DNA of 21,800 nt, taken from a virus. Below the pieces are notes generated by a model. It worked only from the letters and a program-made list of their open reading frames with translations. It had not been told where the DNA came from and made no database searches. This document shows positions 1-19,536 of this stretch, piece after piece. The first letter of the stretch is position 1. Each line of letters opens with the position of its first letter. A program made the position numbers and the translations under genes. The stretch covers positions 1 through 21,800 of IMG/VR virus record IMGVR_UViG_3300020166_001479; one strand, written 5' to 3'.

Positions 1-353
1 TTTTCAATGCCATTGCCTGCGCTAAAGTGTGCTCTTGTTTCGGCTGCGCTCGGACCAGTGTATGTAAAGACTCCAGTACTATTATTGTAGACTAATGAGC
101 CATCACCGCTAGCGTTAGTTGCCGAAAAGTGTGCTCTTGTTTCGGCAGCACTTGTACCGGTATATGTAAGCACACCTGTTGTGCTATCGTAAGCTAATGA
201 GCCATCACCGCTAGCATTGGTAACAGAAATTAACCCACGTACATCGGATGACGATAGTATTGTATCAGTTAAGTTCTCTAAATAGTCAAAATTACCGTCC
301 ATCTCGATATAAGTAAGTGGAGTTGTTTTGTCTCTGCGCAGTATCAGTGGCAT
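1..353 (-). CDS. Tail fibre-like repeat protein, N-terminal part (runs off window)
   Basis: A reading frame starts with ATG at 353-351 and stays open to position 1, giving about 117 residues of a longer protein. It begins MPLILRRDKTTPLTYIEMDG and then enters tandem 34-residue repeats of the type ASGDGSLxYxxxTGVxTYTG followed by SAAETRAHFSA. Repeats of this kind are known in tail fibres and other virion proteins of marine T4-like phages, where they probably form beta-rich fibre shafts. A ribosome site AAAGG lies 7 bases before the ATG, and a late-promoter-like AATAAATA lies 24 bases before it, overlapping the stop codon of the giant gene. Its place after the large baseplate gene suits a fibre or baseplate appendage. 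The C-terminus, which would carry any receptor-binding domain, is outside the window. The repeat family is recognised with fair confidence; the fibre role is inferred. Confidence 0.8.
   Translation of the reverse strand, partial: MPLILRRDKTTPLTYIEMDGNFDYLENLTDTILSSSDVRGLISVTNASGDGSLAYDSTTGVLTYTGTSAAETRAHFSATNASGDGSLVYNNSTGVFTYTGPSAAETRAHFSAGNGIE
24..227 (-). repeat. Two tandem 102-bp coding repeats (34 residues each)
   Basis: Two adjacent 102-base units, 24-125 and 126-227, are roughly 80% identical by eye. They share exact blocks of about 21 bases at 24/126 and 22 bases at 92/194. Each encodes one 34-residue unit with GDGSL, TYTG and AAETRAHFS. Degenerate flanking copies occur at 1-23 and just after 227 (VRGLISV in place of TRAHFSA). 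The period is a multiple of three and most differences are synonymous or conservative, so this is a protein repeat under selection and not a DNA-level repeat element. Confidence 0.9.
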
Positions 354-377: not shown

Positions 378-385
378 TATTTATT
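378..385 (-). promoter_or_regulatory. Late-promoter-like motif AATAAATA before the fibre-like gene
   Basis: The minus strand reads AATAAATA, matching the NATAAATA late-promoter pattern reported for T4-like marine phages (T4 itself: TATAAATA). It overlaps the TAA stop of the giant gene (383-381) and lies 24 bases before the ATG at 353. That spacing resembles the one before gp6, leaving a short leader that holds AAAGG. Confidence 0.5.
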
Positions 386-3300
386 CAATGTATCCATCCT
401 CTACATATCCGGCTTGTATATATGTGTTGATTTCAGAATCGACTGCACTTCTAGAAACTACTATACCTGTTTTTTCTGTTAAGAATTTTGCCGGTATGGT
501 GTTTGCAGCTTGCAATCCAGTACCGTCACTAGGATTGTCTAATGTTTCGTTTTCGTTATACCATACATATGCACCTGCATCTAAGCCCTTACGACCTGGA
601 ATAACTGTACGTTCGCTAGCATCAATTACTAAATCGCCTACTTTATGTTGTGTCTGTGATCCAGTTCCGCTAGTTCCTCGACGTATTTGTCCTAGTGTGT
701 TTCCTGTTTTGGTATAATAAGTAATTCTTTCTGCATTAATAAACACTACACCGGGCATACTGTATTGTGGCCCAGGATCTGCTAAGTTGCTAGCATCTTC
801 GACTACTATTTCTGTATCTGTTAAATTTAGATTCCTTGCCAAGACAGTACTTTCCATAGTACTTAATCTATTATAACTTGTACTATTGTTCATGTCTTTA
901 AAGATCTGGAAAGTACTTGCAGTTTTGTATTCTGTTGCAATACTCCAAGTAATAACAATTACGTCAGTTTCGTTAATAACAATACTATCCGCAAAGTTAA
1001 TAAAACTGTCGGTTCCATTATTACTAACCGTGTAGTCAATGTTTGGAGCCATTTTACGACCATTAATTGAAACCATAATTTCTGATGAATTAGTTTGATC
1101 GCTATCAATTGGATAAGCAATATCTAATATGCTAACCGAGCTAGTGCTATCGAAAAGTTCATTATCAAATCCGACTGTATCAAATTTTATATCTACATCA
1201 GTAATTTTTGATAACTGTTCACTCCCAACAAACACTTTGGTTTTGATTCTATAGACATCATGTGAACTAAAGCTGGTAATTGCTAGCAAACTGCCATTGG
1301 ATACATCTATATCATCACTGATTCTAACAGTGTTGTCAGCAGCATCATAATAGTACTCGGCATCTGTTGTATAAGTGATACTAATGTTAGCGTTTGCTAC
1401 AGGTGCAACAAAGAAAGTTACAGTCGGAATACTACTGCCATCTGCGTCACTTAACTCATAATCGCTTGCATCCTGTCTGACTCCATCGACCCACACATTT
1501 ACTTCTGCAAATGTTAAGCTAGAATATTCTTCTGCTGCACTAGTTGGCAACTGATATACTGCAGTACTACCATCGCCTGTGTAATAATTTGTGTTTCCTG
1601 GGCGCAGGCGATTGCCATCAAACTCAACAACCAAAACAGTGTCTTTGCTACGGTCATAACGAATAGTTTCATCAAGTACAACAGATCTATTTACGTCAGA
1701 TACCATTTCTAGTTGTGTGTAAGGCTTACTGATAGTATTTTTATCAGAATTACTACTTCCAACAAAATGTATATGACTACCATCGCTTGGTGCATTATTA
1801 AACAATATAGCTGTTCTATTGCTGTCTTGAATGTCCAAGACAAGATCCCCGTCTTGCGTTTCGACTCCGTTAACCAACACTATATGATTAGCAATTTTAC
1901 TAAATGGGGCAATTGCTGTAAATGCAGTTGTGCTACCGTCAGCCTCGAAATGTTCATTGACTATAATGCTCTCACCTTGCAATCTAACATTATAGATTTG
2001 CAACACATCATTATCTGCTGGTGCCGATTCAAATACTATTTCGTTTGTGCTGTAGTCTACTGTATAACTCTGCGTTTGATTTGTAGCGTAGTAACTGCCT
2101 TCAGGTATACTGTTAGCAATGTATCCTGGCGCACCTGCCAATCTTGGATCGTCTTGTGCTGGTGTGTTGCCATCCTGGAATATGCTTCTAATAGTAGCAA
2201 GTGATGGTTTACTAATAGCTGTAGCAATATATGTGTTGTGAAAAGCATAGCCCAATGGGTTGTTTGCTTGTATGCCTGCTTGAGTGCGCATATCGTCTGT
2301 CCACTCAGGAGCAAGGCTTCCGCCATCCCATAATTCTGTGTACTCAAACATAGCAAAATTTAGTAGGAACAAGTATTCTTTTGCTGCTACTTCAAACGCA
2401 TCTGCGTCAGTTTTCCAAGCATCTGACGGACTTTGATAACCCGACGGGTCCCACTTGCCGGCATCGTATGCTTCTTCCATTGCCGCATATAAATCACCTG
2501 TCTGCCAATCAGAGGCTAAGAACTGATATAGTTTTATATCATCTGCAGGTAAACCATGCATATGAAGTGTGTGGAATACGTGTTCAATAACTTCTTGTGC
2601 GTCAATGTCACCATCGCCATACCCATCACCTGTCGAATTTAAATACCATACCATGTCATTTTGAACGGTATTATCAAACAAGTTAGTTAAGTTCCAACTA
2701 ATCACACCTGCGTCAGTTAAGAAGTTTGGAGTATAATCTGCTCCTGCACCTCTTGCTACTCTTTGTATAGTTGGCTGGCCTGCGTGATAAGTTCCTGCAT
2801 CGCCGCTAAGTGTTTGGATTAAGTTTCTTTGATATTCTTCGTTAATACCGGCACCATTTGGATCTGTAAACAATTCAACCATACGTGCTACTTTTTCCAA
2901 CCACGCATCTGGGACTGCTGTTTGTCCGCCCACTGTGCCAGCACCCATAACTCTTACACCATTGGTTGTAACTTCACGCTTGAAGAAGTCGCTACCATCG
3001 CCAGTAACATTGATAATTGTCCCATTGTTGTATTCTGGATCAGCTTCAGAACTAAACGCAACTTCTTGCCCACTGTCAGCAATATCTCTGTAGCGTGGTC
3101 CACCATTTTTCAAGTAAACCATAAAGTGGTCACCGATGTGATTGTTGTCTAAGTCGAACCCAAATCTTTTAGTGACTCCATTTGTGCGATAACTGGTTAA
3201 ATTCCAGTCAATTCCAAAATTAATATCTTGTGCGGCTGTGTTAGTTGCCAGAGTATGAACTCGGATATCTAGTGTGTCATACACCCTGCCTGGAACCATT

Positions 3301-6300
3301 TCCTCAGGAGCGTGACTATGATATGTGTCTAAGAACTTGCCGCCTTGTGTAATAATATCTTCTGGAGCAGTACCTAGTGTAGTATCAAGGAATTTACTGT
3401 ACAATGTTTGGTCTAGTACTGCAGGATCAATAACTGGTACACCTTCAGGTCCAATTACACTGCTATCTAAACCTTCAATATCAAAATTACTTGCATCAAA
3501 CCCTGGGTTCTGATTAAAGTTAGCGCCGGCTACGTTAATCCCCGGAAACACAACTCCATCGACTAGCTGCGACAAGTCTTTGCCTAGCATGCCATCATTG
3601 GGCTGATAAAATGCTGTAATTCTATCTAAGTGGCTTACTAAATCAGCACCAGACGATTCTGTTAAATTTTCACTGGTAAAACTACTGCCTGCAGTAAATT
3701 GCTGATCTACTAGGTACAACTTGTTGTTGTTTCCAATATATTCTCCTTGGTAGTAAGTTAAGCCTTTGGTCCATGGCAAAACACTACTCATAAAGCTAGC
3801 TAAACTTCCGTCCTCTGTTACTGTTGTTCCACTAACATCAATACTGTTTGTTCCAACACTAGCACCTAACTCTTGAATTGCAGTTTGTAACAACTCAGGT
3901 GTCCAGCCCCGGGTATCTCTACGTTCGTAAAACTGCACTCTTCCACTTGTATTGTCAACAAATCTATAGTTGGGAACACCGGCTACTGGATAAATGTCAG
4001 ATCCTATCCAAGCACCTTTGCTTAAAATATCTAACACTTCGTCAATTACACCGCCGGCTCCAGTTGTTCTGCTGATGCTTTCTGATTTTACATTAACATC
4101 TTCTCCTGATGCATTTTTAAAGTGTACTAGCCAACCTGCCGAAGTTGCAACACGATCAAATTTAATTGTAGTATCAAAACTTCTAACTTTAGTATTGACT
4201 AATCTTGGAGCAAGCAATGCAGGATCACTAGTTTCAATGCCAATAGTAATAGTTGGTGTTGTAATATAACCCGACCCAGGGCTAACTACTGTTACTGATG
4301 TAATGCTACCATTATTGATTGTTGCTTCGAGTTTTGCACCAGATCCGCCGCCGCCTGTAACTGTTAATACAGGAGGAACAATGTAACCACTTCCTTTATG
4401 GCTTACATCAACACTGCTCATTTGTAGTGTATAATTGTTAGTCCAGTCAATATATGGTTCTAGGTTTAGAACAATATCATCTTCTACAGTTTGCCCAGTT
4501 GGGCTACGATACTGATTAGTTGCAAAATTATAATATGCAGGCAAGTCAAAGTCAGTGGTTTTTGTACTTGCAGTATCAGTACCATTGTATGACAGAACAA
4601 ATTCTGATATTTTTGTATGATATGGCTTAACTTCGTTGATGTACTGCCTAATAGAATCTTGATTGTCTTGCTGATACACTGGTATTTGCTGTAATGCTCT
4701 TTGTGTCTGATTAACTTTAATCAAACTAGTTTTAAATGCCCAATCGTTGTATTGATTTTCAGTTACTGCATATTTTATCATATGCAAGAACCATTGGTTC
4801 TTTTCTACACTGTCTCCGTCAGCAAAGACCTTGTTGTACACACTGCGCATAATGTTTTGAATTTCAAGGCTTGGCCAATCATCAAACAGTTGTAATCCGA
4901 ACCCATCTTGGTCCCATCCTTGAAGATTCTTAGATGTTTTCCATATGCTTTCTTTAATTTGTATTGTTCCATTTTCTTGTTGTACTGTATTCCAAGAATT
5001 ATTTTGACGCAATACTATTTTAAATAAGCCGTCTCCGTTATCTCTAATTTTAACAAAGTCACCTTCACTAGCTGTTAGGCTTTGCAGATTGTATTCAAAA
5101 TCAACTACAGTTTCTACCACTGCTGGAACATCAACATCGGGGTCGCTCCAGTTAACATATTCAATATACCTAGCGTTATTATAGCTTTGTATACGATGCT
5201 TGACCCAGGTATTGTTTGCTTGTAAATTATAAATTACCCAACGATTTCTTGTAGTTTCGTCTGACTTTACTAATACCTTATATCCAGTTGCAAGTATTCC
5301 AGTAACCAAGTAATCTAGTTCTACACGATTATTTACAGCTTCGTTATATTCTGTAACGCTAGGTAACGGATCAGATGCTATTACATCAGAAATATCTTTA
5401 CTGTACACTGCCGAAATACTTACAAAAAAGCGATTCATATAAGCAATAGATTCTCTAACTGCACGAGCACGATCAACAAACATTGTTTGTCTTGGGCGGA
5501 AACCAATTCCATATTTTTCAAAATTATTAAGTGCAATGTCAGGTACTAAGTTTCCTTCTTTATCCTGACCAGCTAAACTGTCAATTAATTTTGTTACTGT
5601 TTTTGCAGTAGGAATACTATTTTTGTCGCCGTCGGCTATGATTTTATATTCGTTATGGAACACTCCATTATTTTGCGCAACATCATAATCAACTACAATT
5701 GCAGTATCATCTTGCACAAATCGACTTACGTTATAAATGCCAAAACAGTTGCTGTCATAAAAAGCAACAAATGGAACATTGTTTAATTTTGGATTAGATA
5801 TTAACTCTTCAATTTGCACAGTGCTTAGATTTCTGTTGTTTACTCCCTTAGGGGCACGTGTTTTTCCAACAACCCAAAAATAATATTTTGTATCAAATTT
5901 TCCAGTTTTTTGATTATATTCGCTAAACACATTAAAGTTGCTAGTATCTAGTGCATATGCACTTGGATTATTTGCATCTTTATAATTCTCAGGAGACTCG
6001 GTACTTTCTGTCCACTCGGCGCACATAATTGTACTTCCTGGAAAACTAAATCCCCAATTGGCAGCACGATATTCTATATCGTCTTGTGCATACTCAGTCC
6101 ATTGTGTTAATGCAGTATTCCACCATATTTCGTTTGAATGCTCGGAACCCCATACTACACCGCCAATGGCATTAGTTGTATCGCTGTATGTAGCTGGATC
6201 AATTTCTGTTTGATAAGATATTTCTTGTTTAGCTACACCTGTAACAAAACCCTTGGCTGGGTCAATTATGTCGAGATCGACAATTTTTTCTCCACTTACA

Positions 6301-9300
6301 GTGTTATACAAGTATACTTTATTAATTAGATTCAAGTCAAGTTTGGGAGATTCGCTGCGTAGCAATTCCCAAGTATCTTTAGCTGACGTATTAGTAAAAC
6401 TGTAAACAATTCCTCCAGTGCTGACTTCTTTGTAATCACTACCCGGTGCACCGACATATATTGTATTATTGCTAAAGTCAATTGCTGTACCAAATCTATC
6501 AAATTCTTTTATATCGTTTGGTGCTAGTTCTTCAGCTAAAATCAGTTCTGCCGGATTGTCAGCTGTAGAATTTGGTTTAGATATTAATTGATAAACAAAC
6601 ACACTTCCGCTTTGTGTTTTTAAAGAAGATATAGTTGTTGCAGTGTTATCAAAACTAGTTGCACCAGCATCGAACGTAGTTAGCAAACGTGCATCACCTT
6701 GATCCGAGCCAACCGCAAGATAGGACGCATCAGTATTAACTTTTACAACTTTACCAAAGTTATTATAGTTTTTATTCCTTGGGCTAGCAATTACTTGCTG
6801 TGATGCATATACATCAATTCCTGTGTCTGCAAAAAAGCTCCCTGCCACTGAAACTAAGTTTAGTTTGTCTGCAAATACTACCCGGTCAGTATCAATCTTT
6901 AGCTTGTTATTTGATGAACTAGCTGTTATACCCGGAATATTTGCTGTGTTGATTGTTTCGACTATACTAGCAAGATTATCCGAAGTACTAAATGAAACTA
7001 GGAAATTATTAATTAATAGTTTACTGCTAGAACTAATGACCGGATTTGCAGTTGTTCCGCTAACATTTCCAAAAAAGCGCCCTTGGTTAATAAACCTATG
7101 AACTTTGCCGCCGTCAATTGTAGAGTCATCTTCATATGGTGCACCAATATAAAGGCTACAATTATTTGGGCATAAGTCTAGGCTATATCCAAACTGTGCA
7201 GCAATCTGCGGATCTTCAAAATCGTCGATTGTTTCGGACAGTACAAAGTTATTGCTTTCAATTGTTACAATACTACCAGTGTCAGGGGCAGTTATGAAAG
7301 TAAAAGTATCATTGCCGGTAATAGTATAATCAGTTACAACTGTTTTTACAATGCCATCGACTGTTACTTTTGCATTTCCTTGTACAGCACTATCCGTTGT
7401 AAACACTTTTGTAGTTCCATTGGCATAGAAGCTTTCAATAGTCCTGTCAATAATGTAAACCTTGCCACTGTCAGTTAATAATGTACTGTGATCATCAGCA
7501 GTTGGCGATCCAATGATGACCTGACTTCCGTCGTCGCTGGTTGCTATGCTATATCCAAATTGATCTCCAGTACCGCTTGGTACGGTGATTTCTTCTACTA
7601 GGTTATAATGACTTTTTAGAAATACAGTTGCTTCGCCAAAATCGGGTGCCGTAGTAAAAGTTATATCGTTGCTACTTAATGTGTAGTCTCTAAACGGTAT
7701 TAACAACTTGCCGGCCGGGTTTACTATTTTAAGAGCATATATGCTACTAGGATCTGCTAAGTCACCTGTTAATGTAAACGTTGCAGTGCTGCCATCACAG
7801 GATAATGTCTGGAATGCGTTACCGGTAACTGTAATGTACTGGTAAGCCCATACTTTATTACTACCCGGTTGACCGACATACAACCAACCACCGTTGTTGC
7901 TTACTGCAACACTGCGCCCATACTCTCCGCTTGCATCTTGTGTACTTGAACTAAGTGCTTGGTCAATGATAAAGCTATTATTAGTGTCATGGACCGCAAC
8001 ATGCACATATCCCACATTACCACTCAGTGGACTACCTATTGCCGCAGTTCCAAAACTACTAGCAGACAGAGTTGCACCAAAATCAACTAATCCGGTACTT
8101 ATATTTTCTAATTTGGCATCTTCGGCTAGCACACCGGTAGTGGTATTTCTTTTAAAGGCTTGTACTGTAGATGTATTGTTACCAGCCAACAAGTAATTGT
8201 TGTTCCTAGCACTAGCTATACTTACACCAAGTTGGTCGTTGAGGCTTCTGGCTGACTCAACGTAACGGTTAACTGTATTATAACGACTTTGTTTTTCGTA
8301 TACACCCCAGCCAGCTTCAGTAGCGTTTTCAATATAAAATTGGTCACCATTGAGCCAGCCATTAGTTGGAGTTGACGAGCTTATGTCTGTAATGTTATCT
8401 TTATATAACTCTACTAATTTTAGTATCTCTCCATTTAAGTTTATTTGATTTTGAGCAGAAAAACTACTTTCTACAGTAAACGTTTTGTCATCAATTATTG
8501 TTTGAATATTATAGACATTAGAAAATCTTGATGAAGGATATGTTTTTACATAAACTCGGTCAGTATCTGTAAGTCCGTGAGCAGCATCAACTGAAATAGT
8601 TGCAATGCCATTTGCAGATATTGATATAGTGTTTAGCTGTATATTACTATCAGTGAATCTATAAACGTTCCATTCGTTGCTATCATTGCGTCCAATCCAT
8701 ACTCTGCTACCATCAACGACTTTATCGTCAATATCATTTGATAACTGATCAAAATTTGAACTCATATAATTAACTTCGTCAGTTCTAACAAAGCCTGCAC
8801 TTGTAAGGTCATTTACTTCACTTTTAGCATTTCTATAACTAATGAAATTTTTGCTATAAGGACGCTTGTAGGTCAATAAATCTTTTTGTTTAAAACTAAA
8901 TCTGCCGGTTGTTGGAGTGTCATTTGCATCTAATACTTCAACTACAACAGGATTTTTAATACTATCTTTGTTTAAATTTAATGGTACTCTTATCTGTGCT
9001 ACATTATCAGTAATACCATATGATCCGTCACGTACTGCCCATTGTTCGAATATTTCAGCTTTTCCGTCAAAGTTATCTAACTTTGCTCTCAACAGCTTAT
9101 CCAAGCTGTTGTTACTACCTTTTTGTCGTATCATGCCTTGATAGAACTTAACTTGGCTTGTATCACTAATTCCTAAATTGTCAAGGTATTGTCTCGGCGA
9201 GAATCCAATTAATCCTTTGCCTAGCTTATCAGCGTCAAGTTCTAAGTTTGTATCATTAAAATCATAAAAACTCTTGGGTTGTGCAGAACGATTTGCTAAG

Positions 9301-12300
9301 TTTGGCAGTAGTGTACTATTAAGTTGATTATATTCAGTAATTAACCAGCTACTGGTATCAAATGTCGTCGCTCCTGGTATGTTTTTGCTAGCTACATAAT
9401 ATAGATTTTTATAAGTTACAATTTCGCCTTTGTAATAGTTTTTACCTTTTTTCCAAGCTTGAACATTATTGTCATTAATAATAAATCCTGCAGCGCCAAA
9501 TGTGCCATCCCAATCGGCAGTTTTAAATCCTGTGATTTTAATTCTATACTGTCTATTGCCTAGCTCAGGCTGATAGATAATGTCATTGAACTGTGTTTTG
9601 TTATTAAGACATATAACATGTTCGTAATCTACAACGTCTAGGTCAGCAAGGTAAATTCCCTGGCCGTTACTAGTTTTTAAACTAAAGTTTCTACCATCTC
9701 TGCTAGCAGTATACTGATTGGTTGATATAATATCAAAATTGTTGTTAAGTATTCTACTACCATATGGTCTATTACTTATTGCGTCAACTGCACCTCTACT
9801 AGAACGATACTCTAGTTCATCGCCCATTGGACTAAGAGTTATAACAATATTGTCTTCCCAACCTTGTTGACTCCAGAACAAAAATTCTTCCGCAGCTAAG
9901 TCCCAGTTGTGTAATTTATTTTCGCCTTTGACTTTTCTGTTGAAGTTGAAGCCTAGACGTTCTAAATGTCGTCCATAACTAACTAAAAAGTCTATTACTT
10001 CTGCTTTGCTAGAAAATTCTGTGTTGTATGGCACAATGGCAGTTTTTCCATTGCCATTTTTTGCTACTTCAACAGTGCTACTTCCTGCCGAAATAACTTT
10101 AGTTTGACGATTATTGCTACTTGGCTCGATTACAAAGTACGGTCTATTTTGGTCGTAACCTGTTACAGAATATCCGCTGCCTACATTAGTTACAATAACT
10201 CCACTATAAGTTAGACTTACTCTAGGAGAACTTTTTATTAATTTAATACTAAAATCGTTATCTGGAATCAAAACACTACTGTTTGTACTGTTAGGACTAC
10301 TTTGATCAGCAAATAGTTTAAGATATTTCTTATCACTATATCCGCCTAGTTTATATGCAAGTCTTATATCTATATTTCTTAATTTCTTGCCGACCTCTTC
10401 AGTGATATCAAGATTCATGCTTTTAGCATAATCAGAAATCCAATTCAAATAACCACTGCTACGAGTAACTACACCATTAACAACTTCGCCGTTTACATAC
10501 TCGACTTTTCTACGAATGCCTGTGCTACGGAATTTCCATTGCTGGTTGCTATCACTGTACTTTTCAACAATTTGATCGTTTGTATCTCTGAGCTGTCCAA
10601 AATATTCTGCAGGTTTACACAATGCTAGAGCTAACTGAATTGCATAAGGATATTCACTACTTTGGTTCCATGCTGACTCAACTGGGCTAGCATCTCCAAA
10701 TTTCCAAGGACCTTCTGTATCTATACTAGTATTTGCTGCTAAACTTTCAAACGGTGATAAAAGTTCTCCGCTATCGTTTACTGGGATAATACGTTTTAAC
10801 CCGGGACGAGCATATCTACTATCAGTGCCTTGTCTTGCACCGGCTCTAATTTTGCCTACTTCTAAGTCGTCCCATAACACTGAGTTACCATTTGTATAAG
10901 GAGCAGGACCATATTCATTTTTCCACCATGATGGTTCTTCTGCAAAACCAAGCATTTCCCATGGTCTAAGATTTGGTTGTTCTGTATCGTAATAATAGCG
11001 ATACAATCCTCTCCAGTAACCAGCTATCATTTTACTATTACTATTACGTTCAGTAAATTGATTATAATTCCAAGTAAAAGAATCATTGCTATCAAAATTA
11101 TCGTAGTTGGTTAATTGTAAATTATTTTTGCCTAACCACGTTCCAAAATTAGAGCTTAGTATATTATCAAACTCAGCTTTGTTGTAGTCAGTAACTCTGA
11201 ATGCACCAGGTATGTTACTACGAATATCAAACAAATCTTCGTTGTATCTATTTTTGATATTATTGTATATACGTTTTTCTAATTCTAATATAATCGAGTC
11301 TCTATAATCATTGAATGCAACTGTAAGACTACCATCGTGTCCTCGAATTACAGATCTGACAGATCCTGTATACCCATCAGTGACCATTGAAGGTATTGTT
11401 GATGGATATAGCCCTAATTTAGAAGGAGTCGGAGGAACATGCATACCATCGGTATTACTAAACTCACGTATTTCTATTACATCGCCATCGTTAAGAGCAA
11501 CGTAATACATATTACTATCTGGTCTTTCTGGTGCTATATTTAGTACAACCACTGGTTGTGTTTTAGAAAATGTGTAATCTTTTCCATACGTTAATTGCTG
11601 TCCATTGATATAAACTGTTACAGCACGATTGCTTGACGTAGTAATATCAAAAGCACTACTGAGATAGTATGTGCCAATAGTATTGTTAGTAACAGTATAC
11701 AACAACTTAGTATAGTCGTTACCGCCTGGTACCATATCGCTGTAATAGAACGGAAACATTTCGTTTTTGTTCTGGAATAAATTTGTTAATATCTCGTCAA
11801 CACTTTTAACAGGGTCAGTGTAGTCTGTCAATGGCATGTCTTCTGCTAGCTTAATAAATTTATTCTTAAAAACCGAATACTCTCGTTGTGCATATAATAA
11901 ACTTTCTACAAAGTTTGCTTTTGTATCATTTAAGAATAGGTTTGCTAAATGCGGAGCACCTGCGTTTTGTGATATTTTGCCGCCATTAAGTTTTACATTT
12001 GGTAAATCTTTAATGTTGTTACTTCCTTGAAAGCTTCCTGTTACTCCATTGGTTTTAGTAAATGACTCCCCTATGTGATTTCTTAGTTGACCAAGTGTTA
12101 GCTCAACAATGTCTTGGTTTTTTGCATTGTTTTCTAAATTACTAGGAATTTCCCAATAACTGCTATTGGTGTAGTTGTTACTAAACACTTTAACATCAAG
12201 CTTGTCGTTTACTGCTAAGTCTTTATTTAAATCAAGAAATCCAATATTTCCCTCAATTGAAATGTCAAAATCTTTAGTTAGTAGTGCAACATTATTTTTG

Positions 12301-15296
12301 TAAACTAAAATATCCGATGGACTTAGAGTTGCCGGAATAACATTTAATTTAAATCTATTTTTTTGATATTGTGTAGCAAAATATGTTTGCAACTGATATT
12401 GCTTGGACTTTTCTTTTATCTTAACCCATTGATTTACATATGCACTATCTTTATTTTTAAAATTTTGTTTAGCATTTAATTTGTTTGTTGTAGAAGTTAC
12501 GCTGTTTTCGTTGCCGTCCTCGAAACTAAATGTGTCATTGGCAACATAGTCAAGAAACACAATATCCCCAACATTATCAATGTTTTTGTAGCTTAGGCGT
12601 ATTCCTAGCTCTTTATCTTTTACACCAGTGCCAATTTTATAACCGAACAACTTGTTTCCAGCAAAGTTACTACCACTATAAGTTGCAGTATCGCTAATGC
12701 TGATATTATTACTGTCGTACAAATCAAACAAAGGTGCTTGGTTATCTTGTGACTTTGTTTGGGAAAGTTTCCATTCATTATTATAATAATGCCAATTGGT
12801 TCCTTGGTTTTTTGTACCTAGTTCTGACAGAATTACATCTCCATCTTTGACGGTACCAACTGCTTCTAAATGAATTTGTTGACCAAAAACATAAGTTGTT
12901 GATATATTGCTTCCAGCATCTGGTGCTGTTTCAAATTCGATAGTCTGGCCACTAGCGGTATATAAAAAACCAGCTTCGTCAGCAAGAACACCGTCAATAG
13001 TTACAGATAGCCTAATGCTACTGGTTATGTTAAAATTTAAATCAAATTCAGTAGTAGATCCATCGCCAACAAAGTTTAAATTTCTATTATTCTGTTCTGA
13101 TTCAACTGTAACCCATCTTACTTCCCAAATAGTCTGCTTAACAGTAGTACTTGGATCCTTTGTAAAAATTACACGATTGCCATTAACTAGTGGTATACCG
13201 TCGCTGTAGTACCCACTGATTGCGCCATCTACTGATTCAACAGCCACACCTTCAACATTGCTTAGTACATCAGTTTCGTTTGTATCTACTACTGTTACTG
13301 TATCCTTATAAAACGATCCAGAATTATACAACTGAAGTCCTGCATCAAATTCAATGATAGGACGTTTTGCACGGCTTTGTTGATCTAGTGTTGGTACATA
13401 ATTGTTATAAGAATTTGTGTTATTAATTACACTTTCATGGAACCAACGGTTCTGTCGTGTCCATGCACTACCATCACGGCTGTTTCTTTTAATTCCGATG
13501 TATTGTTTTTGTTCTGGCGCAGGTTGACTTTTATCAAATGCTTGTCCATCAAAGAAATCAGCATCAAATGGAGTACTAATTGTATCAAGCCATGATTCGG
13601 GTGTATTTAAATCATCAACTGCTATAAGGTCAATTGCGGTACCAACTCCTTCGACATAATACTCGCGATTTTCGTATTCGGCTGGAACAGTTGTACCACT
13701 AAATCTTACTTTGAGTCCGTTCTCAAACACCACACCAGTTGGACTGGTATAATTTTCTAAACCTAGTATTGTATCTACATTGATATTTAAGTTGTTGTCT
13801 TGGTCAACTAATTCAATTACACCATTGATATTTGGATCAATGCTATCTTGATAGTAAAGAAAATCCAAGTTAGCAGTAATAGGAGAAATTAATTCTAGTT
13901 TGTTATTAGCAGTTCTGTATACCTGCCTATTACTATATTGGGTACCTTCAGAAATATCAACTTTTTCATTTACACTAATACTCCCAGCTGGAGTTAGTTC
14001 AATAATGCCTTCGCTGTTAATATCAATATCAAACCAACCTAATTGATTTTCTAGTGAAACATCGCTACCGCGGTCAAAGTTAGACGCATCATACCCAACA
14101 TTTGTATTGTCAAATAGTGCAGGATCATACCAAGAATCAGACAAGTCGTATACTTCTAAATTACTTGTGTTAAATGTTCTACTGCTGGCATAATCAGATA
14201 ACACCCGATATACAGTATTTGCGTATATAACTAAATCATTCTCGGAGTACTGTGTTAATGCTTGCCAAGGCTGTGGAACACGATTTTCGTCGTCATCTTC
14301 TAGGAATAAGATAGTCTTGCCAGATAGGTTTCTTACATTATCAATGCCACTATGTTCGCTAATAAAGTCAGTGTATCTAGCATTCTGTACTTCAGTGTAT
14401 TTAAGTGCTCTTCTTTTTCCAACACTATACGCTACAAGATTTACAGTATCTGCTATAGGCATGTTTAAAAAGAAATTTTGCGCATCTTGCGTTGGTACAT
14501 TAAAAGTAACAGTTCCAACTTCGGCACCATTATTAACAACACCAAGCACATTCCTTGAGCTTAGATTAGTTTGCCAATCGTAACTTTCCTCTATGCCAGG
14601 TGTACCTTGAATAAAGAATCCATGGCCGTATTGATCTACATTAAATCTATAAGTGCCGCCTCTAGCTAATCGTAATACTGGACTTATTCTATCACCAGTA
14701 GTGCTAAAGCGATAACCCGACTGACTTAGTCTTGATATACTGTTTGTGCTAACATCAAAGACACTATTATCATAATTTTCAAAGTCATACAGACCATCAT
14801 TAACAGCATAAATGTCAGGTTGCAAAACGTCTATATCTAAATCAGTAGGAATTTCGCTTGCAAATACATTAACACTATCTGGGCCAGTGGGCAACCAATA
14901 ATAGCTACTATAGTTTACAAACTTATCAAAATCAAAAAATCCACTATAATTGTACTGGTCTGCAGCAAACACTCTATTGGGATTATTAGTTGTACCACCG
15001 TAACTGCTAATTTTGTCTAGTAAATCTGTATACCCACTGATAAACTTAATATTGTCATTATCATCAGCATATACTGCACTAGGCTCAAGTTGATAGTTCT
15101 GTCTATCAATATAATCTTCTGCTATATAACTATCGTACGGAGTTAATGCTGGATTAAATCTTCTACCAATATACCCATCAAGACGTCTAACTTCTGGTTC
15201 CGATATTAGTTGGTCAACGGTGGCTTGTAGTAATTTTTCATTGGTCTTGGTTTGAAAAATACTAGGTAAAAAATCTAAACTTTTTCTATATGCCAT
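381..15296 (-). CDS. Giant mosaic virion structural protein (4,971 aa), gp7 position
   Basis: This single uninterrupted 14.9-kb frame starts at ATG 15296, 15 bases after the gp6 stop, with a weak purine-rich GAAAG before it; coupling to gp6 is likely. The N-terminus (FLPSIFQTKTNEKLLQATVD, then LDGYIGRRFNPALTPYDSY) matches, as far as I recall, the very large 'virion structural protein' family of marine T4-like phages. Approximate domains: cupredoxin-like sandwich 198-285; GDGST beta modules near 740, 2500, 2625, 4450 and 4570; a helical, Trp-rich core 1125-1830; a seven-repeat FG-GAP-like propeller 2355-2970; a segment with NEVKPYHTKISEFV near 3550; glycine-rich GSGY repeats 3630-3680; a helical EF-hand/histidine insert 4125-4395; and an RGT module 4810-4910. 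No signal peptide or membrane segment was seen. It directly follows gp6, where T4 has gene 7, so a wedge-associated baseplate role is inferred. Homology to T4 gp7 (about 1,030 aa) is not demonstrated. Confidence 0.85.
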   Translation of the reverse strand: MAYRKSLDFLPSIFQTKTNEKLLQATVDQLISEPEVRRLDGYIGRRFNPALTPYDSYIAEDYIDRQNYQLEPSAVYADDNDNIKFISGYTDLLDKISSYGGTTNNPNRVFAADQYNYSGFFDFDKFVNYSSYYWLPTGPDSVNVFASEIPTDLDIDVLQPDIYAVNDGLYDFENYDNSVFDVSTNSISRLSQSGYRFSTTGDRISPVLRLARGGTYRFNVDQYGHGFFIQGTPGIEESYDWQTNLSSRNVLGVVNNGAEVGTVTFNVPTQDAQNFFLNMPIADTVNLVAYSVGKRRALKYTEVQNARYTDFISEHSGIDNVRNLSGKTILFLEDDDENRVPQPWQALTQYSENDLVIYANTVYRVLSDYASSRTFNTSNLEVYDLSDSWYDPALFDNTNVGYDASNFDRGSDVSLENQLGWFDIDINSEGIIELTPAGSISVNEKVDISEGTQYSNRQVYRTANNKLELISPITANLDFLYYQDSIDPNINGVIELVDQDNNLNINVDTILGLENYTSPTGVVFENGLKVRFSGTTVPAEYENREYYVEGVGTAIDLIAVDDLNTPESWLDTISTPFDADFFDGQAFDKSQPAPEQKQYIGIKRNSRDGSAWTRQNRWFHESVINNTNSYNNYVPTLDQQSRAKRPIIEFDAGLQLYNSGSFYKDTVTVVDTNETDVLSNVEGVAVESVDGAISGYYSDGIPLVNGNRVIFTKDPSTTVKQTIWEVRWVTVESEQNNRNLNFVGDGSTTEFDLNFNITSSIRLSVTIDGVLADEAGFLYTASGQTIEFETAPDAGSNISTTYVFGQQIHLEAVGTVKDGDVILSELGTKNQGTNWHYYNNEWKLSQTKSQDNQAPLFDLYDSNNISISDTATYSGSNFAGNKLFGYKIGTGVKDKELGIRLSYKNIDNVGDIVFLDYVANDTFSFEDGNENSVTSTTNKLNAKQNFKNKDSAYVNQWVKIKEKSKQYQLQTYFATQYQKNRFKLNVIPATLSPSDILVYKNNVALLTKDFDISIEGNIGFLDLNKDLAVNDKLDVKVFSNNYTNSSYWEIPSNLENNAKNQDIVELTLGQLRNHIGESFTKTNGVTGSFQGSNNIKDLPNVKLNGGKISQNAGAPHLANLFLNDTKANFVESLLYAQREYSVFKNKFIKLAEDMPLTDYTDPVKSVDEILTNLFQNKNEMFPFYYSDMVPGGNDYTKLLYTVTNNTIGTYYLSSAFDITTSSNRAVTVYINGQQLTYGKDYTFSKTQPVVVLNIAPERPDSNMYYVALNDGDVIEIREFSNTDGMHVPPTPSKLGLYPSTIPSMVTDGYTGSVRSVIRGHDGSLTVAFNDYRDSIILELEKRIYNNIKNRYNEDLFDIRSNIPGAFRVTDYNKAEFDNILSSNFGTWLGKNNLQLTNYDNFDSNDSFTWNYNQFTERNSNSKMIAGYWRGLYRYYYDTEQPNLRPWEMLGFAEEPSWWKNEYGPAPYTNGNSVLWDDLEVGKIRAGARQGTDSRYARPGLKRIIPVNDSGELLSPFESLAANTSIDTEGPWKFGDASPVESAWNQSSEYPYAIQLALALCKPAEYFGQLRDTNDQIVEKYSDSNQQWKFRSTGIRRKVEYVNGEVVNGVVTRSSGYLNWISDYAKSMNLDITEEVGKKLRNIDIRLAYKLGGYSDKKYLKLFADQSSPNSTNSSVLIPDNDFSIKLIKSSPRVSLTYSGVIVTNVGSGYSVTGYDQNRPYFVIEPSSNNRQTKVISAGSSTVEVAKNGNGKTAIVPYNTEFSSKAEVIDFLVSYGRHLERLGFNFNRKVKGENKLHNWDLAAEEFLFWSQQGWEDNIVITLSPMGDELEYRSSRGAVDAISNRPYGSRILNNNFDIISTNQYTASRDGRNFSLKTSNGQGIYLADLDVVDYEHVICLNNKTQFNDIIYQPELGNRQYRIKITGFKTADWDGTFGAAGFIINDNNVQAWKKGKNYYKGEIVTYKNLYYVASKNIPGATTFDTSSWLITEYNQLNSTLLPNLANRSAQPKSFYDFNDTNLELDADKLGKGLIGFSPRQYLDNLGISDTSQVKFYQGMIRQKGSNNSLDKLLRAKLDNFDGKAEIFEQWAVRDGSYGITDNVAQIRVPLNLNKDSIKNPVVVEVLDANDTPTTGRFSFKQKDLLTYKRPYSKNFISYRNAKSEVNDLTSAGFVRTDEVNYMSSNFDQLSNDIDDKVVDGSRVWIGRNDSNEWNVYRFTDSNIQLNTISISANGIATISVDAAHGLTDTDRVYVKTYPSSRFSNVYNIQTIIDDKTFTVESSFSAQNQINLNGEILKLVELYKDNITDISSSTPTNGWLNGDQFYIENATEAGWGVYEKQSRYNTVNRYVESARSLNDQLGVSIASARNNNYLLAGNNTSTVQAFKRNTTTGVLAEDAKLENISTGLVDFGATLSASSFGTAAIGSPLSGNVGYVHVAVHDTNNSFIIDQALSSSTQDASGEYGRSVAVSNNGGWLYVGQPGSNKVWAYQYITVTGNAFQTLSCDGSTATFTLTGDLADPSSIYALKIVNPAGKLLIPFRDYTLSSNDITFTTAPDFGEATVFLKSHYNLVEEITVPSGTGDQFGYSIATSDDGSQVIIGSPTADDHSTLLTDSGKVYIIDRTIESFYANGTTKVFTTDSAVQGNAKVTVDGIVKTVVTDYTITGNDTFTFITAPDTGSIVTIESNNFVLSETIDDFEDPQIAAQFGYSLDLCPNNCSLYIGAPYEDDSTIDGGKVHRFINQGRFFGNVSGTTANPVISSSSKLLINNFLVSFSTSDNLASIVETINTANIPGITASSSNNKLKIDTDRVVFADKLNLVSVAGSFFADTGIDVYASQQVIASPRNKNYNNFGKVVKVNTDASYLAVGSDQGDARLLTTFDAGATSFDNTATTISSLKTQSGSVFVYQLISKPNSTADNPAELILAEELAPNDIKEFDRFGTAIDFSNNTIYVGAPGSDYKEVSTGGIVYSFTNTSAKDTWELLRSESPKLDLNLINKVYLYNTVSGEKIVDLDIIDPAKGFVTGVAKQEISYQTEIDPATYSDTTNAIGGVVWGSEHSNEIWWNTALTQWTEYAQDDIEYRAANWGFSFPGSTIMCAEWTESTESPENYKDANNPSAYALDTSNFNVFSEYNQKTGKFDTKYYFWVVGKTRAPKGVNNRNLSTVQIEELISNPKLNNVPFVAFYDSNCFGIYNVSRFVQDDTAIVVDYDVAQNNGVFHNEYKIIADGDKNSIPTAKTVTKLIDSLAGQDKEGNLVPDIALNNFEKYGIGFRPRQTMFVDRARAVRESIAYMNRFFVSISAVYSKDISDVIASDPLPSVTEYNEAVNNRVELDYLVTGILATGYKVLVKSDETTRNRWVIYNLQANNTWVKHRIQSYNNARYIEYVNWSDPDVDVPAVVETVVDFEYNLQSLTASEGDFVKIRDNGDGLFKIVLRQNNSWNTVQQENGTIQIKESIWKTSKNLQGWDQDGFGLQLFDDWPSLEIQNIMRSVYNKVFADGDSVEKNQWFLHMIKYAVTENQYNDWAFKTSLIKVNQTQRALQQIPVYQQDNQDSIRQYINEVKPYHTKISEFVLSYNGTDTASTKTTDFDLPAYYNFATNQYRSPTGQTVEDDIVLNLEPYIDWTNNYTLQMSSVDVSHKGSGYIVPPVLTVTGGGGSGAKLEATINNGSITSVTVVSPGSGYITTPTITIGIETSDPALLAPRLVNTKVRSFDTTIKFDRVATSAGWLVHFKNASGEDVNVKSESISRTTGAGGVIDEVLDILSKGAWIGSDIYPVAGVPNYRFVDNTSGRVQFYERRDTRGWTPELLQTAIQELGASVGTNSIDVSGTTVTEDGSLASFMSSVLPWTKGLTYYQGEYIGNNNKLYLVDQQFTAGSSFTSENLTESSGADLVSHLDRITAFYQPNDGMLGKDLSQLVDGVVFPGINVAGANFNQNPGFDASNFDIEGLDSSVIGPEGVPVIDPAVLDQTLYSKFLDTTLGTAPEDIITQGGKFLDTYHSHAPEEMVPGRVYDTLDIRVHTLATNTAAQDINFGIDWNLTSYRTNGVTKRFGFDLDNNHIGDHFMVYLKNGGPRYRDIADSGQEVAFSSEADPEYNNGTIINVTGDGSDFFKREVTTNGVRVMGAGTVGGQTAVPDAWLEKVARMVELFTDPNGAGINEEYQRNLIQTLSGDAGTYHAGQPTIQRVARGAGADYTPNFLTDAGVISWNLTNLFDNTVQNDMVWYLNSTGDGYGDGDIDAQEVIEHVFHTLHMHGLPADDIKLYQFLASDWQTGDLYAAMEEAYDAGKWDPSGYQSPSDAWKTDADAFEVAAKEYLFLLNFAMFEYTELWDGGSLAPEWTDDMRTQAGIQANNPLGYAFHNTYIATAISKPSLATIRSIFQDGNTPAQDDPRLAGAPGYIANSIPEGSYYATNQTQSYTVDYSTNEIVFESAPADNDVLQIYNVRLQGESIIVNEHFEADGSTTAFTAIAPFSKIANHIVLVNGVETQDGDLVLDIQDSNRTAILFNNAPSDGSHIHFVGSSNSDKNTISKPYTQLEMVSDVNRSVVLDETIRYDRSKDTVLVVEFDGNRLRPGNTNYYTGDGSTAVYQLPTSAAEEYSSLTFAEVNVWVDGVRQDASDYELSDADGSSIPTVTFFVAPVANANISITYTTDAEYYYDAADNTVRISDDIDVSNGSLLAITSFSSHDVYRIKTKVFVGSEQLSKITDVDIKFDTVGFDNELFDSTSSVSILDIAYPIDSDQTNSSEIMVSINGRKMAPNIDYTVSNNGTDSFINFADSIVINETDVIVITWSIATEYKTASTFQIFKDMNNSTSYNRLSTMESTVLARNLNLTDTEIVVEDASNLADPGPQYSMPGVVFINAERITYYTKTGNTLGQIRRGTSGTGSQTQHKVGDLVIDASERTVIPGRKGLDAGAYVWYNENETLDNPSDGTGLQAANTIPAKFLTEKTGIVVSRSAVDSEINTYIQAGYVEDGYIE
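575..875 (-). other. C-terminal module of giant protein with INAERITYY and LGQIRRGTSGT
   Basis: Residues about 4810-4910 carry STVLARNLNLTDTEIVVEDA, then PGVVFINAERITYYTK, then TLGQIRRGTSGTG followed by QHKVGDLVIDAS. The pattern 'value at strand, E-R-I-x-Y, short loop, R-G-T, H-x-x-G-x-x-V' recurs in phage and prophage structural proteins and is probably a small beta domain. Its place near the C-terminus suggests an attachment or capping module. The function is unknown to me. Confidence 0.5.
2110..2925 (-). other. Helical insert domain of giant protein with EF-hand-like loop and His cluster
   Basis: Residues about 4125-4395 differ in style from the beta-rich surroundings. They begin VPDAWLEKVARMVELFTDPN, are rich in helix formers, Trp, Tyr and His, and end near TIRSIFQDGNTPAQDD. 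The 12-residue loop DGYGDGDIDAQE (4224-4235) fits the EF-hand pattern at positions 1, 5, 6, 8, 9 and 12; only position 3 (Tyr) departs from it. It runs straight into a helix with H4239, H4242, H4245 and H4247 beside E4238. Calcium binding is a reasonable inference, and a second metal site is possible. No HExxH protease motif is present. I have an uncertain memory of similar segments in secreted marine bacterial or eukaryotic proteins but cannot name a family. Confidence 0.55.
4255..4415 (-). repeat. Glycine-rich GSGY beta repeats in giant protein
   Basis: Residues about 3630-3680 hold two copies of a short repeat: HKGSGYIVPPVLTVTGGGGS and then VVSPGSGYITTPTITI, joined by GAKLEATINNGSITSVTV. 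The pattern 'GSGY-x-x-x-P-x-(V/I)-T' is common in phage fibres and surface proteins and probably forms stacked beta strands. An isolated related copy, VTNVGSGYSV, occurs much nearer the N-terminus (DNA about 10170-10200). Confidence 0.65.
6385..8235 (-). other. Seven FG-GAP-like repeats, predicted beta-propeller in giant protein
   Basis: Seven consecutive segments start with an (F/Y/L)-G-x-(S/T/A) core and most end in a (V/I)G-x-P or AG-type strand. They begin near residues 2355 (LGVSIASA), 2403 (FGATLSAS), 2457 (YGRSVAVSNN), 2576 (FGYSIATSDDG), 2699 (FGYSLDLCPNN), 2844 (FGKVVKVNTD) and 2933 (FGTAIDFSNN). Typical continuations are LYVGQPG, VIIGSPTADD, LYIGAPYEDD and IYVGAPGSD, followed by GKVYIID, GGKVHRF or GGIVYSF. 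This is the FG-GAP pattern of integrin-alpha-type propellers. Spacing is widened between some blades by inserted modules: GDGST-type between 3/4 and 4/5, and a flagellin-IN-like stretch between 5/6. Seven blades match a closed propeller. Acidic residues after the IG-x-P strand could bind calcium, though the full DxNxDG loop is mostly degenerate. Confidence 0.7.
6885..7080 (-). other. Flagellin-IN-like insert between propeller blades 5 and 6
   Basis: Residues about 2740-2805 read KLLINNFLVSFSTSDNLASI, then VETINTANIPGITASSSNNK and LKIDTD. The order 'strand, I-V-x-x-I-N, A-x-I-P-G-I-T-A-S, short turn, L-x-I-x-T/D' resembles the IN repeat of flagellin and of flagellar hook-associated proteins. 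That makes it a small alpha/beta insertion carried on the propeller. The resemblance is by eye only. Confidence 0.4.
14440..14705 (-). other. Cupredoxin-like beta-sandwich near N-terminus of giant protein
   Basis: Residues about 198-285 contain SPVLRLARGGTYRFNVDQYG followed by HGFFIQG, then NNGAEVGTVTFNVPTQDAQN. The pattern 'P-x-L-x-L-x-R-G-x-T-Y-x-F-x-V, G-H-x-F-x-I, V-x-N-x-G-x-x-x-G-T-V-x-F-x-V-P' recurs in virion proteins of marine phages and resembles a cupredoxin-type sandwich. The usual type-1 copper ligand set (His-Cys-His) is not evident, so a structural role is more likely than metal binding. Confidence 0.5.
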
Positions 15297-15311: not shown

Positions 15312-18300
15312 TTATGTAGTTTTCAAACCAAGAGGAGTGTATCCTCCAAATATGTTAATTGACTGGTTGCTTTGTAGTTGAGTCGCTGTTACACTATCTA
15401 TTATTTCAACATCGTTAACTGTTGCGCTGCTGATAAAAATTTCATTTGTGTTGCAAATAATTTGAAATAATTCTCCGAAGCTTTGACTTGATGTTTTAGG
15501 AACAATAACAACACTACCAATGTCCTGTGACAGTTCTTGATGCAAATAAGCACCTAGTTCACTGAAGTAAAATGTATCACCAAAGTCCCAGTTTTCGATA
15601 TCAAAATATTCGTTAATAATGTCAATTACTCTTGTTCTAATCTCACTATTACTTATCCTACTATTTTCTGCACGTACAACTTTAAACGTTGCTTGCAACT
15701 CACTATTAGCTTTAGAACCAAACAATACTTTAAATCCAGCACCGTTAAACGAAATACTATCACTAACACTTTTTACATTATTAAGATCCTGATAAGCAAC
15801 ACTCATGTCTACTAATGTTGGCTTTTCTGGTTCTTCGATTAATCCAGTTGTGTCGGACAAATAAATTCTATATTGATTGTTATATGCTTCTGTTAGAATA
15901 TACATGTCAATTATATTACTAGCACTCGGGTCAATACGTTTGTCATTTGGACTATTGTGACGATATTGAAAGTTTAATTTGTCTCTGCCAACACGAACAA
16001 TATAGTTTGTAGTATCACTAATTGTACGGACGTCTTCAACTAATGTTAATTCATAAAATTTCTTGTCGGTATTTGCATAAAAGATTGTTCCAATTTTGTA
16101 AGCATACCTGCCATCATTTTTAATTGCTTCTAATGTTGCAAATCTTGTTACTACATTTGAGCTATCAAAATAACGATATCTTTCGATATTATCGTAATCA
16201 AGGTATTTTTCAAAAAATACTAATTTATTTAAAGGATTAGTACTTGCATCAACAATAGTATCAAATACTCGAGGATTATCTGGCACACTATCATTGTCGC
16301 TATCAGCATAGGTAATTTTAACTTTACTATCGTCGCTGTATCCGTCGGCAAAATTTACAGTATTATAAATTTCATAACTTAATTCTGTAGGCAAGAAATT
16401 ACTACTGTCAGGCAAAGTATTACCTTTAAGTATGTTTACTTGATCTTTAATTACCGAGGCATTTCTACTATCATAAACTTGTGTAGCCGAATCAAAATAA
16501 AATCTTGTTTCTGCTTCGCTTCCCCAGAAAAAGTTTAATCTTCTTTGCAATACAGTATACCGCCCTAATCCTTCATTGGTCATTAGCACATGCCAGCTAG
16601 CATCAAGATTGCTTCTGCTAGCATTTCCTGCATTGCCTAAATCAAACGCACTACCACTTTTAATATCACTTGGGTTTACAATAGCCCAGACACGAGTTTC
16701 TTGGTCATAACGCAGTGCAAAATCTTCATTGTTGATAATTTTTCTACTAATAGTCTGTGATAATGTAGCAGAAAGATTAGTGTTATATACTGGATAAATT
16801 TCTACCAGTTCAGCACCATTGGGCACATTTTCTGTTAGTACAACTGGGCCTGGGCCTTGGGTTTGATTGTTTAGCCATCCATTGCCAAGTGCAGTACCGT
16901 CATCGACTACACTCTTAACACTAGCCCATAGTTCAGTAACTTGACCGTCTTGGGTCGGAGTACCTTCAGACAGTGATCTATCAATATCAAAGTAAAATCC
17001 AGTCGGTGCTCGGAACAACAACAAAGATCCTGGTTCGATAAACTTTCTATTGTTGGCAGTAAAGTTACCAACTTGCTGTACTTCGTACGAGTCAACATCG
17101 GTACTTAATACAAAAAATCCTGTACTAGTAGTAGCTTCTGCAGTTCCTTTAATCCAGAATGTAACAGGAGGTACTTTGGTACTATAACTATAGTAATAAA
17201 GATTTATACTTTCTTTGGCTTTGAGTATATTGCTCAATTCATTGGAAATAAAACTCTGCACATCAGCTGCAGTAGTCCAATTGAGTTTACTACTAAAGTT
17301 GTCTTCTTCTTTATATGTATATCCATCTTCGCAGAAAATGTTAGTACTACTATACTTTCCAGTAACATCTTTGAGTTCTAAAAATCTACTAATGCCGCTG
17401 CTAGTTCTGTTAACACTTTTAATTTTTAATATGTCTCCATACTTGATGTACGGAACTGTATTATAGTCTTCACCGTTAACCATTCGATTTTGGCTATAAA
17501 AATTCTGCGGTGCTTTAATTTTAATTTGGTTTAAACTTTCTCTTGTGCTTGCATTACTAATAGTGCTTTGCAAAGACAAAGTCAGTCTGAGTCGTTCGGT
17601 TTTGCCTGCTTTTGTTATGTACGGAAGATCTACGTTAACGTTTTGCATTTCGCTTGGCGATATAGTATAACTAAGGCCATTGCTGGTTCTAGTTACTGCT
17701 CTAAAAATTCCAACAGGTACTTCACTGAAAACTCCGTCGCCAAATACATAATCTACTTGGTCATTTGCTCTACTGTACACACTGAATATTTTTCTGTTTT
17801 CTTGAGCTACACTATTGTAGATAACATTGCTATCACGTAGTTGCTCAACTTCGGTCCATTGGTCCAGGTATGCGCCTGCATTATTAATTTCAAATAACCA
17901 GGTGTCAGTATTGTTGATGTTATCAACATTTAAACTTACTAGTCTGTTAGGAATTCTTTCACCGATAGTAAAATCAAGATTGTTCAAGTTGCCTTGTTTA
18001 AACCCTACAAAGAAACCAGTATTAGGACTACGATTACCTTCGCTATCGTTCTTATATAAGAATCCAAAACTTTCCCCAGGTCTAGGAGACTTTTCGTAAA
18101 CACCATCTGTATTGCTTAGTCCAACATTGTATATGTCAAAACTCATACTAATATTATCAACTGAGCTATTGAAGTTTAACAATGGTATTTGATTTGGTCT
18201 AGTACTAAATTCATAAAGATCGTGTCTAGTGTCGCCGATCCTTAGACTACTTGCTGGTTTGCCAACCCGCTGATTATTTGCTAACACACTGTTAACTATT

Positions 18301-18822: not shown

Positions 18823-19200
18823 TTATGTATAGGTGACAGAATTTAGATTCTGGTCAAATAACAATCTAAGGTTTTCTGATTGATTTAGGTTATTGTATCT
18901 TATCTGCAATTCGATTAAAATACCATTCTGATATTCGTCAACTAGCACTTTATCAGCAACAATTCTAGGATCATAGTTTACAATTTCAACTACATCATCA
19001 ACTATTGCATCGCGAAGATCTTCTGTCATTGGCTCAAACAGTGCGTCCCATATTATTGATCCAAAGTCAGGTCGCATAAGTTTTTCACCTTTACGAATAT
19101 TAAAATGATTTAATAAATCACGCTTAATGAGTTCGGAGTCTTCAATGCGAACTTTGGTGCTATTATTATTTACTGTGTTATAACCGTTATAAAGTGCCAT
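18823..19200 (-). CDS. 25: Baseplate wedge protein gp25-like (GPW/gp25 family)
   Basis: The 125-residue product matches the gp25/GPW family in size (T4 gp25 is 132 aa) and in its core: LIKRDLLNHFNIRKGEKLM at 24-42, RPDFGSIIWDALFEP at 43-57, then a helix (DLRDAIVDDVVEIV) and beta strands ending ILIELQIRY. The LFEPM stretch corresponds to the conserved E-P motif of phage gp25 and the related TssE of type VI secretion. gp25 binds gp6 and gp53 in the wedge core next to the tail tube and sheath. The start at 19200 is supported by the family-typical opening MALYNGYNTVNN. A late-promoter-like GATAAATA ends only 5 bases upstream, and no clear ribosome site is visible. Confidence 0.93.
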   Translation of the reverse strand: MALYNGYNTVNNNSTKVRIEDSELIKRDLLNHFNIRKGEKLMRPDFGSIIWDALFEPMTEDLRDAIVDDVVEIVNYDPRIVADKVLVDEYQNGILIELQIRYNNLNQSENLRLLFDQNLNSVTYT

Positions 19201-19240: not shown

Positions 19241-19492
19241 ATGAAAACCCTTTTAATTTATACAAAGCAAGGATGTAATGGTTGCCTTGAAGCTAAGAAT
19301 TTTCTTGATGACCTAAATATTCCATACACCGAAGTTGATGTTGAATCTGACCAACACAGTGCAGATTTTTTAATTCAGCAAGGAGATAAATTCTTACCAC
19401 AGTTTTATTCAAATGGTAAAAAATTTATACCCGGAGGATGGAAATCATTGAAAACTATGCGACAAGACGAAATACTTAATAGACTAAAATAG
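19241..19492 (+). CDS. Small glutaredoxin with CNGC active site
   Basis: The 83-residue product has the order of a phage/bacterial glutaredoxin: strand KTLLIYTKQG, dithiol site C12-N-G-C15, helix LEAKNFLDDLNI, strand PYTEVDVES, the cis-proline loop FLPQFY with P53, strand FI and then PGGWKSL with the GG motif at 65-66. Glutaredoxins reduce ribonucleotide reductase and other disulfides in the cytoplasm using glutathione; T4-like phages often carry one. The active site CNGC replaces the usual CPYC. A weak AAAGG lies about 13 bases before the ATG. It is the first gene of the plus-strand unit, 44 bases before the PAAR gene, an unexpected place for a nucleotide-metabolism function. A role in redox control of virion proteins cannot be told from the sequence. 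Confidence in the fold is high and in the target is low. Confidence 0.9.
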   Translation: MKTLLIYTKQGCNGCLEAKNFLDDLNIPYTEVDVESDQHSADFLIQQGDKFLPQFYSNGKKFIPGGWKSLKTMRQDEILNRLK

Positions 19493-19508
19493 TAGCAGTT
19501 TAATTATT

Positions 19509-19516
19509 GTTAAATA
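19509..19516 (+). promoter_or_regulatory. Possible late-promoter motif GTTAAATA before PAAR gene
   Basis: GTTAAATA differs from NATAAATA at one position and ends 20 bases before the PAAR ATG, nearly the same spacing as before gp6. A good ribosome site, AAGGA at 19526-19530, lies 6 bases before the start. A 6-bp inverted repeat (TTGTTA/TAACAA, 19507-19512 and 19522-19527) spans it and touches the ribosome site. Confidence 0.35.
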
Positions 19517-19536
19517 CATTATAACAAGGATTATTC

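Follow-up and report, generated by a model that had tools for sequence, protein, structure and literature searches.

The window, that is, the whole stretch of DNA analysed here, is a 21.8-kb record of an uncultivated virus with its baseplate genes on the minus strand. The genes that matter for the present analysis are as follows.

18823-19200, minus strand: gp25-like baseplate wedge protein (PF04965, E 7e-13)
15312-18773, minus strand: gp6-like baseplate wedge protein of 1,153 aa (phrog_10646, E 7e-294)
381-15296, minus strand: giant virion structural protein of 4,971 aa (phrog_10938 'virion structural protein', E 0)
3-353, minus strand: fibre-like protein, start only, cut by the record's end

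The original prediction had assigned this region to a phage baseplate, which is borne out by the gp25 and gp6-like genes directly upstream of the giant-protein gene. The gene order is thus gp25, gp6-like, giant protein, and the giant protein occupies the gp7 position, directly after the gp6-like gene, which lies immediately upstream in 89 of 90 loci. Its orthologues, at about 22-30% identity, are the virion structural proteins that follow gp6 in PA5oct, Atu_ph07, Phosso, SCTP-2 and RaK2/121Q-type jumbo phages; the annotation of the PA5oct orthologue states that it was found by mass spectrometry. The core region matched phrog_10938 in all 21 relatives compared. Profiles of two conserved regions matched no solved gp7 chain at E up to 10, so that no sequence homology to T4 gp7 was found. 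The giant protein is a gp7 counterpart by gene position only, in the order gp25-gp6-gp7.

Several further observations concern the surroundings. The fibre-like protein carries the repeated unit 'ATNASGDGSL.Y...TGV.TYTG', and a glutaredoxin gene and a PAAR-motif protein adjoin the baseplate genes on the opposite strand (window 19241-19818, plus strand). CBM_5_12 (chitin-binding-like) modules are found in the giant protein at residues 344-367 and ~1940-1985, and its orthologue in the isolate vB_Pa-PAC2 is annotated as chitin-binding. Residues 4080-4393 (window 2118-3059) form a clean insertion of 314 aa relative to a 75-80%-identical relative, L003. This segment contains EHVFHTLHMHG, has no Pfam family, and is ~90% identical at the protein level to a module of the baseplate wedge protein of Synechococcus phages S-RIM2/S-RIM12, with 87% DNA identity over 931 bases. 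The resemblance suggests that the domain moved recently between a jumbo phage and T4-like cyanophages, and it hints at a shared cyanobacterial host; psbA, a marker of such a host, was found in none of 28 related contigs.

The central part of the giant protein is organized as seven blades with three inserts, all on the minus strand.

8265-8324 (residues 2325-2344), minus strand: host-domain strand 'GWGVYEKQ..' before the propeller; W2330 in 71/71 sequences
8109-8264 (2345-2396), minus strand: blade 1; profile match to the six other blades 96-99%, model strands
7959-8108 (2397-2446), minus strand: blade 2; blade profiles and model
7821-7958 (2447-2492), minus strand: blade 3; blade profiles and model, fourth strand following insert I1
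7611-7814 (2495-2562), minus strand: insert I1, GDGST module, between strands 3 and 4 of blade 3
7437-7610 (2563-2620), minus strand: blade 4; best FG-GAP_2 match, blade profiles
7245-7436 (2621-2684), minus strand: insert I2, GDGST module, between strands 3 and 4 of blade 4
7080-7244 (2685-2739), minus strand: blade 5; blade profiles, CxxNC turn
6804-7079 (2740-2831), minus strand: insert I3, flagellin-IN-like, between strands 3 and 4 of blade 5
6549-6803 (2832-2916), minus strand: blade 6; blade profiles, TTFD..TxFD loop between strands 2 and 3
6336-6548 (2917-2987), minus strand: blade 7; FG-GAP_2 match at 6402-6530, blade profiles
6012-6335 (2988-3095), minus strand: conserved host domain resumed, the part common with propeller-less isolated jumbo phages

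By eye, propeller-less isolates show a comparable 'W.V' strand ahead of this downstream domain.

Seven FG-GAP segments had been predicted here, and the reading frame, the coordinates and all seven segment starts proved correct: the FG starts were measured at residues ~2356, 2406, 2459, 2580, 2702, 2847 and 2935, against predicted positions of 2355, 2403, 2457, 2576, 2699, 2844 and 2933. The motif given for them held in part. The seven segments are real, but the strict FG...(I/V)GxP pattern fits only three of them; 20,000 shuffles of the region gave zero or one such match each. A search with FG-GAP profiles, proposed beforehand as a check, returned significant matches, with Pfam FG-GAP_2 reaching E 3.8e-14 against the region alone (51-53 bits; Pfam cut-off 23) and matching 45/45 relatives at E up to 0.01. 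Blade profiles were then built from an alignment of 71 sequences, window included. Profile-profile comparison linked all 21 blade pairs with a probability of 63-99%, while no pairing of a blade with an insert or flank rose above 7%. Taken together, the FG-GAP_2 score and the linkage of every blade pair place the FG-GAP repeat far beyond chance. At all seven blades 69-71 of the 71 sequences retain the FG glycine, including blade 1 (LGVS...LAGN) and blade 6 (FGKV...VGSD), which are degenerate in the window and nearer consensus in relatives. Across the same alignment, the near-invariant non-glycine positions are W2330, D2876, D2883 and W2976; D2876 and D2883, both in the TTFD..TxFD loop of blade 6, occur in 71/71. 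In the CxxNC turn of blade 5 (residues 2706-2720, window 7137-7181), C2709 and C2713 are each present in 57/71 relatives, and this turn is possibly a disulfide or metal site.

Structure prediction, the other check proposed, gave a confident AlphaFold model whose best match among solved structures is integrin alpha-5. For residues 2105-3100 the mean pLDDT was 86.6 and the pTM 0.83, with the blade blocks mostly at pLDDT 85-97, and Foldseek ranked integrin alpha-5 first (E 1.2e-12, TM 0.59 by target length). A second model, of the relative L054, which is naturally without the first insert, reached a pTM of 0.91, and all 50 of its top PDB matches were integrin alpha chains. In the viral Foldseek library an uncultured Caudovirales protein matched best; next came many giant-virus proteins, several of them named FG-GAP. 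A single-sequence PDB search with the region found no relative. TM-scores to seven-bladed propeller structures were about 0.52-0.71 by target length; ring closure and the side of the inserts would follow from these matches to closed propellers and from the strand order in the model. It is conceivable that the repeats represent another beta-repeat fold or a chance motif, since the window copy by itself yields only 2-3 significant Pfam stretches. We consider this highly improbable, as it is contradicted by the blade profiles, both AlphaFold models and the integrin structure matches. Residues ~2345-2987 almost certainly form a seven-bladed FG-GAP beta-propeller of the integrin-alpha type, and sequence, profiles and models together establish this fold, the seven repeats, the insertion slot and the gene order.

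The inserts had been predicted to decorate the propeller, and natural relatives agree: the module after blade 3 is absent, single or multiple (zero to about three), while the blades always number seven. The distance from blade 3 to blade 4 is 49-53 aa without an insert (six relatives), 120 aa with the one module of the window, and up to 284 aa in relatives; the alignment places two modules after blade 3 in L019, L015, L026 and L029. Because this module varies on a constant blade core, the inserts are best described as removable decorations. I1 and I2 are paralogous GDGST modules (profile probability 98%), I2 with a weak Pfam match to Phage_T7_tail. I3 shows strands and helices in the AlphaFold model; PF07196 (flagellin-IN) matches it in 5/45 relatives and, in the Pfam search, does not match the window copy itself. 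In the strand order of the model, each of the three inserts separates strand 3 from strand 4 of its blade, and the blades concerned (3, 4 and 5) are consecutive.

The propeller is a cassette that interrupts a conserved domain at one of its loops, and the flanks of this variable slot are conserved in propeller-less isolates and propeller-less environmental relatives alike. Between the conserved anchors P2116 and P3013 the slot measures 897 aa in the window, and in isolates it holds 247-1,575 aa of quite different, unannotated sequence from which FG-GAP_2 is absent. In Atu_ph07 (L005) and Phosso (L013) it is occupied by about 1,570 aa of unrelated sequence, glycine-rich and beta-repeat-looking in Atu_ph07, with no Pfam family over the cut-off in either phage. 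In the SCTP-2 slot, visual inspection had suggested a LamG-like domain, which found no Pfam support and was dropped. Phosso also encodes proteins of 3,182 and 3,702 aa, plus shorter ones, with dozens of FG-GAP_2 repeats (PV764938, 48386-68852 and 92229-94508); these stand apart from its gp7-position protein.

The propeller was absent from about 60 isolated PA5oct/Atu_ph07/RaK2-type phages. A tblastn search of isolated phages with the region gave no match at 1e-5; relaxing the cut-off to E 10 brought in nothing but short fragments (mostly GDGST), flanks and the unrelated Phosso FG-GAP protein; queries from two other clade members matched isolates only in the flanking domain. IMG/VR, by contrast, is rich in relatives, with one at 75% identity, seven loci down to 25%, and at least 581 matching stretches when the alignment served as query. 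An independent sample was drawn with an unrelated core region of the giant protein (residues 1400-1500), and the propeller was present in 57 of its 61 uncultivated loci with enough sequence; on further search, three of the four propeller-less loci matched the flank only and one matched nothing. In a tree of the core, rooted only at midpoint, a single branch sets the propeller-bearing rows apart (SH-aLRT 99). Because the propeller itself served to select most rows of this tree, loss events within the clade are under-represented. Contigs that carry the propeller are up to 221 and 323 kb long, so at least some carriers are jumbo phages.

The headpiece of integrin alpha chains, the best fold match, is likewise a propeller of seven FG-GAP repeats. 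It is also the best match by sequence profile, although a weak one (E 0.05), at 12-14% identity. Unlike integrin alpha, the phage propeller lies within a virion protein and bears three extra domains. The DxDxDGxxD calcium sites of integrin blade hairpins occur in 0/71 sequences; the fold is therefore integrin-like without being an integrin, and integrin-style cation-dependent binding should not be assumed. Propellers are already known from phage virions, namely those of phi11, PRD1 P2, phiKZ gp131 and SU10 (PMC4901313, PMC9509320). phiKZ gp131C (4GBF) is a seven-bladed propeller at the periphery of a myophage baseplate with a suspected receptor-binding role (PMC4901313). It shares the blade number and the peripheral baseplate location with the propeller described here, but is C-terminal rather than internal; it appeared neither in the sequence matches nor in the top 50 fold matches, and the comparison is with its published description. 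The SU10 nozzle protein is a seven-bladed propeller with domains inserted between blades and a fibre-docking loop (PMC9509320). As is predicted for the giant protein, its chain enters and exits in one blade and carries domain inserts, but SU10 is a short-tailed phage whose nozzle lines the DNA channel, and this protein too was outside the top 50 fold matches. The receptor-binding protein of phi11 has five-bladed propellers, located on the baseplate and proposed to bind the host (PMC4901313); it differs in blade number, in being trimeric, and in coming from a siphophage of a Gram-positive host. The PA5oct, Atu_ph07 and RaK2-type orthologues (phrog_10938) of the giant protein likewise lie downstream of gp6, but have other sequence in the slot. 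PHROGs contains no family for the FG-GAP propeller, and the literature searched contained nothing on FG-GAP repeats or propellers in phage tails. Relative to PHROGs, the isolates and this literature, what is new is that, in an uncultivated clade of jumbo phages, the protein in the gp7 position carries an FG-GAP propeller fitted with plug-in modules.

Propellers are rigid, disc-shaped structures, and the wedge protein of T4-like baseplates is present in several copies. With several giant-protein molecules in each baseplate, the propellers would stick out from the wedge and form rigid platforms. The GDGST and flagellin-IN modules would sit on the rim, all on the strand 3-4 side of blades 3, 4 and 5, and would most likely serve there as docking sites for tail fibres, spikes or adjacent wedge proteins; one blade face may also touch the host surface. 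We favour such a docking platform as the probable function, with reasonable but by no means full confidence. This reading is suggested by the variation of module number on a constant seven-blade core and has a precedent in the SU10 nozzle propeller with its inserted domains and fibre dock. In most of 11 close pairs compared, propeller and flanking scaffold show about the same degree of conservation; together with the near-invariant tryptophans and aspartates listed above, this leads us to expect fixed virion partners. The platform is evidently dispensable, as the propeller-less relatives do without it.

Alternatively, the propeller could be an accessory receptor-binding domain, with a face or the modules binding a host glycan or protein. 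Host binding has been described or proposed for published phage propellers (PMC4901313), and the CBM_5_12 modules show that the giant protein has other sugar-binding-like parts. There are also signs of local replacement of the kind seen in ligand-binding parts: in L021/L023, identity drops to 42-52% in blade 4 and I2, against 96-98% over most of the protein (the C-terminal part also differs, at 75%), and, more mildly, blade 4 of L100/L108 is 81% identical against ~95% around it. From these identities, the stretch from blade 4 to I2 in L021/L023 appears to be a local segment replacement inside the propeller. Most other close pairs do not share this pattern, the propeller lies mid-protein and not at a tip, and the fibre-like gene just downstream (3-353) means that the phage has other host-recognition candidates. 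A receptor-binding or docking role is plausible in general, but the conservation data appear to favour a structural or docking role somewhat, and we regard primary receptor binding as a possible but distinctly less likely function. A mere spacer, a beta-rich insertion that adds bulk and stiffness to the giant protein and has no specific partners, seems improbable. The quite different filling of the slot in isolates would fit it, but blade number and specific positions are strongly conserved down to about 25% identity, and the single change on the core tree and the presence of the propeller in nearly all independently sampled relatives also speak against it.

There is also a more speculative proposal, to which we give rather little weight: the large uncultivated jumbo-phage clade might have gained the integrin-type propeller once and employ it as an exchangeable head for adhesion or fibre docking, equipped with plug-in modules and, in some lineages, swapped blades, as in the blade 4 region of L021/L023. 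If true, these phages would have a modular device for host range that is separate from their tail fibres.

Collectively, our data reveal a propeller architecture that is widespread, occurring in hundreds of environmental viruses, and that phage annotation has overlooked. It characterizes an entire uncultivated branch of jumbo phages, and none of the isolates searched has it in the giant protein. The variable number of modules on a constant core makes the platform idea testable, and the propeller itself provides a concrete, expressible domain with which the function of baseplate propellers may be probed.
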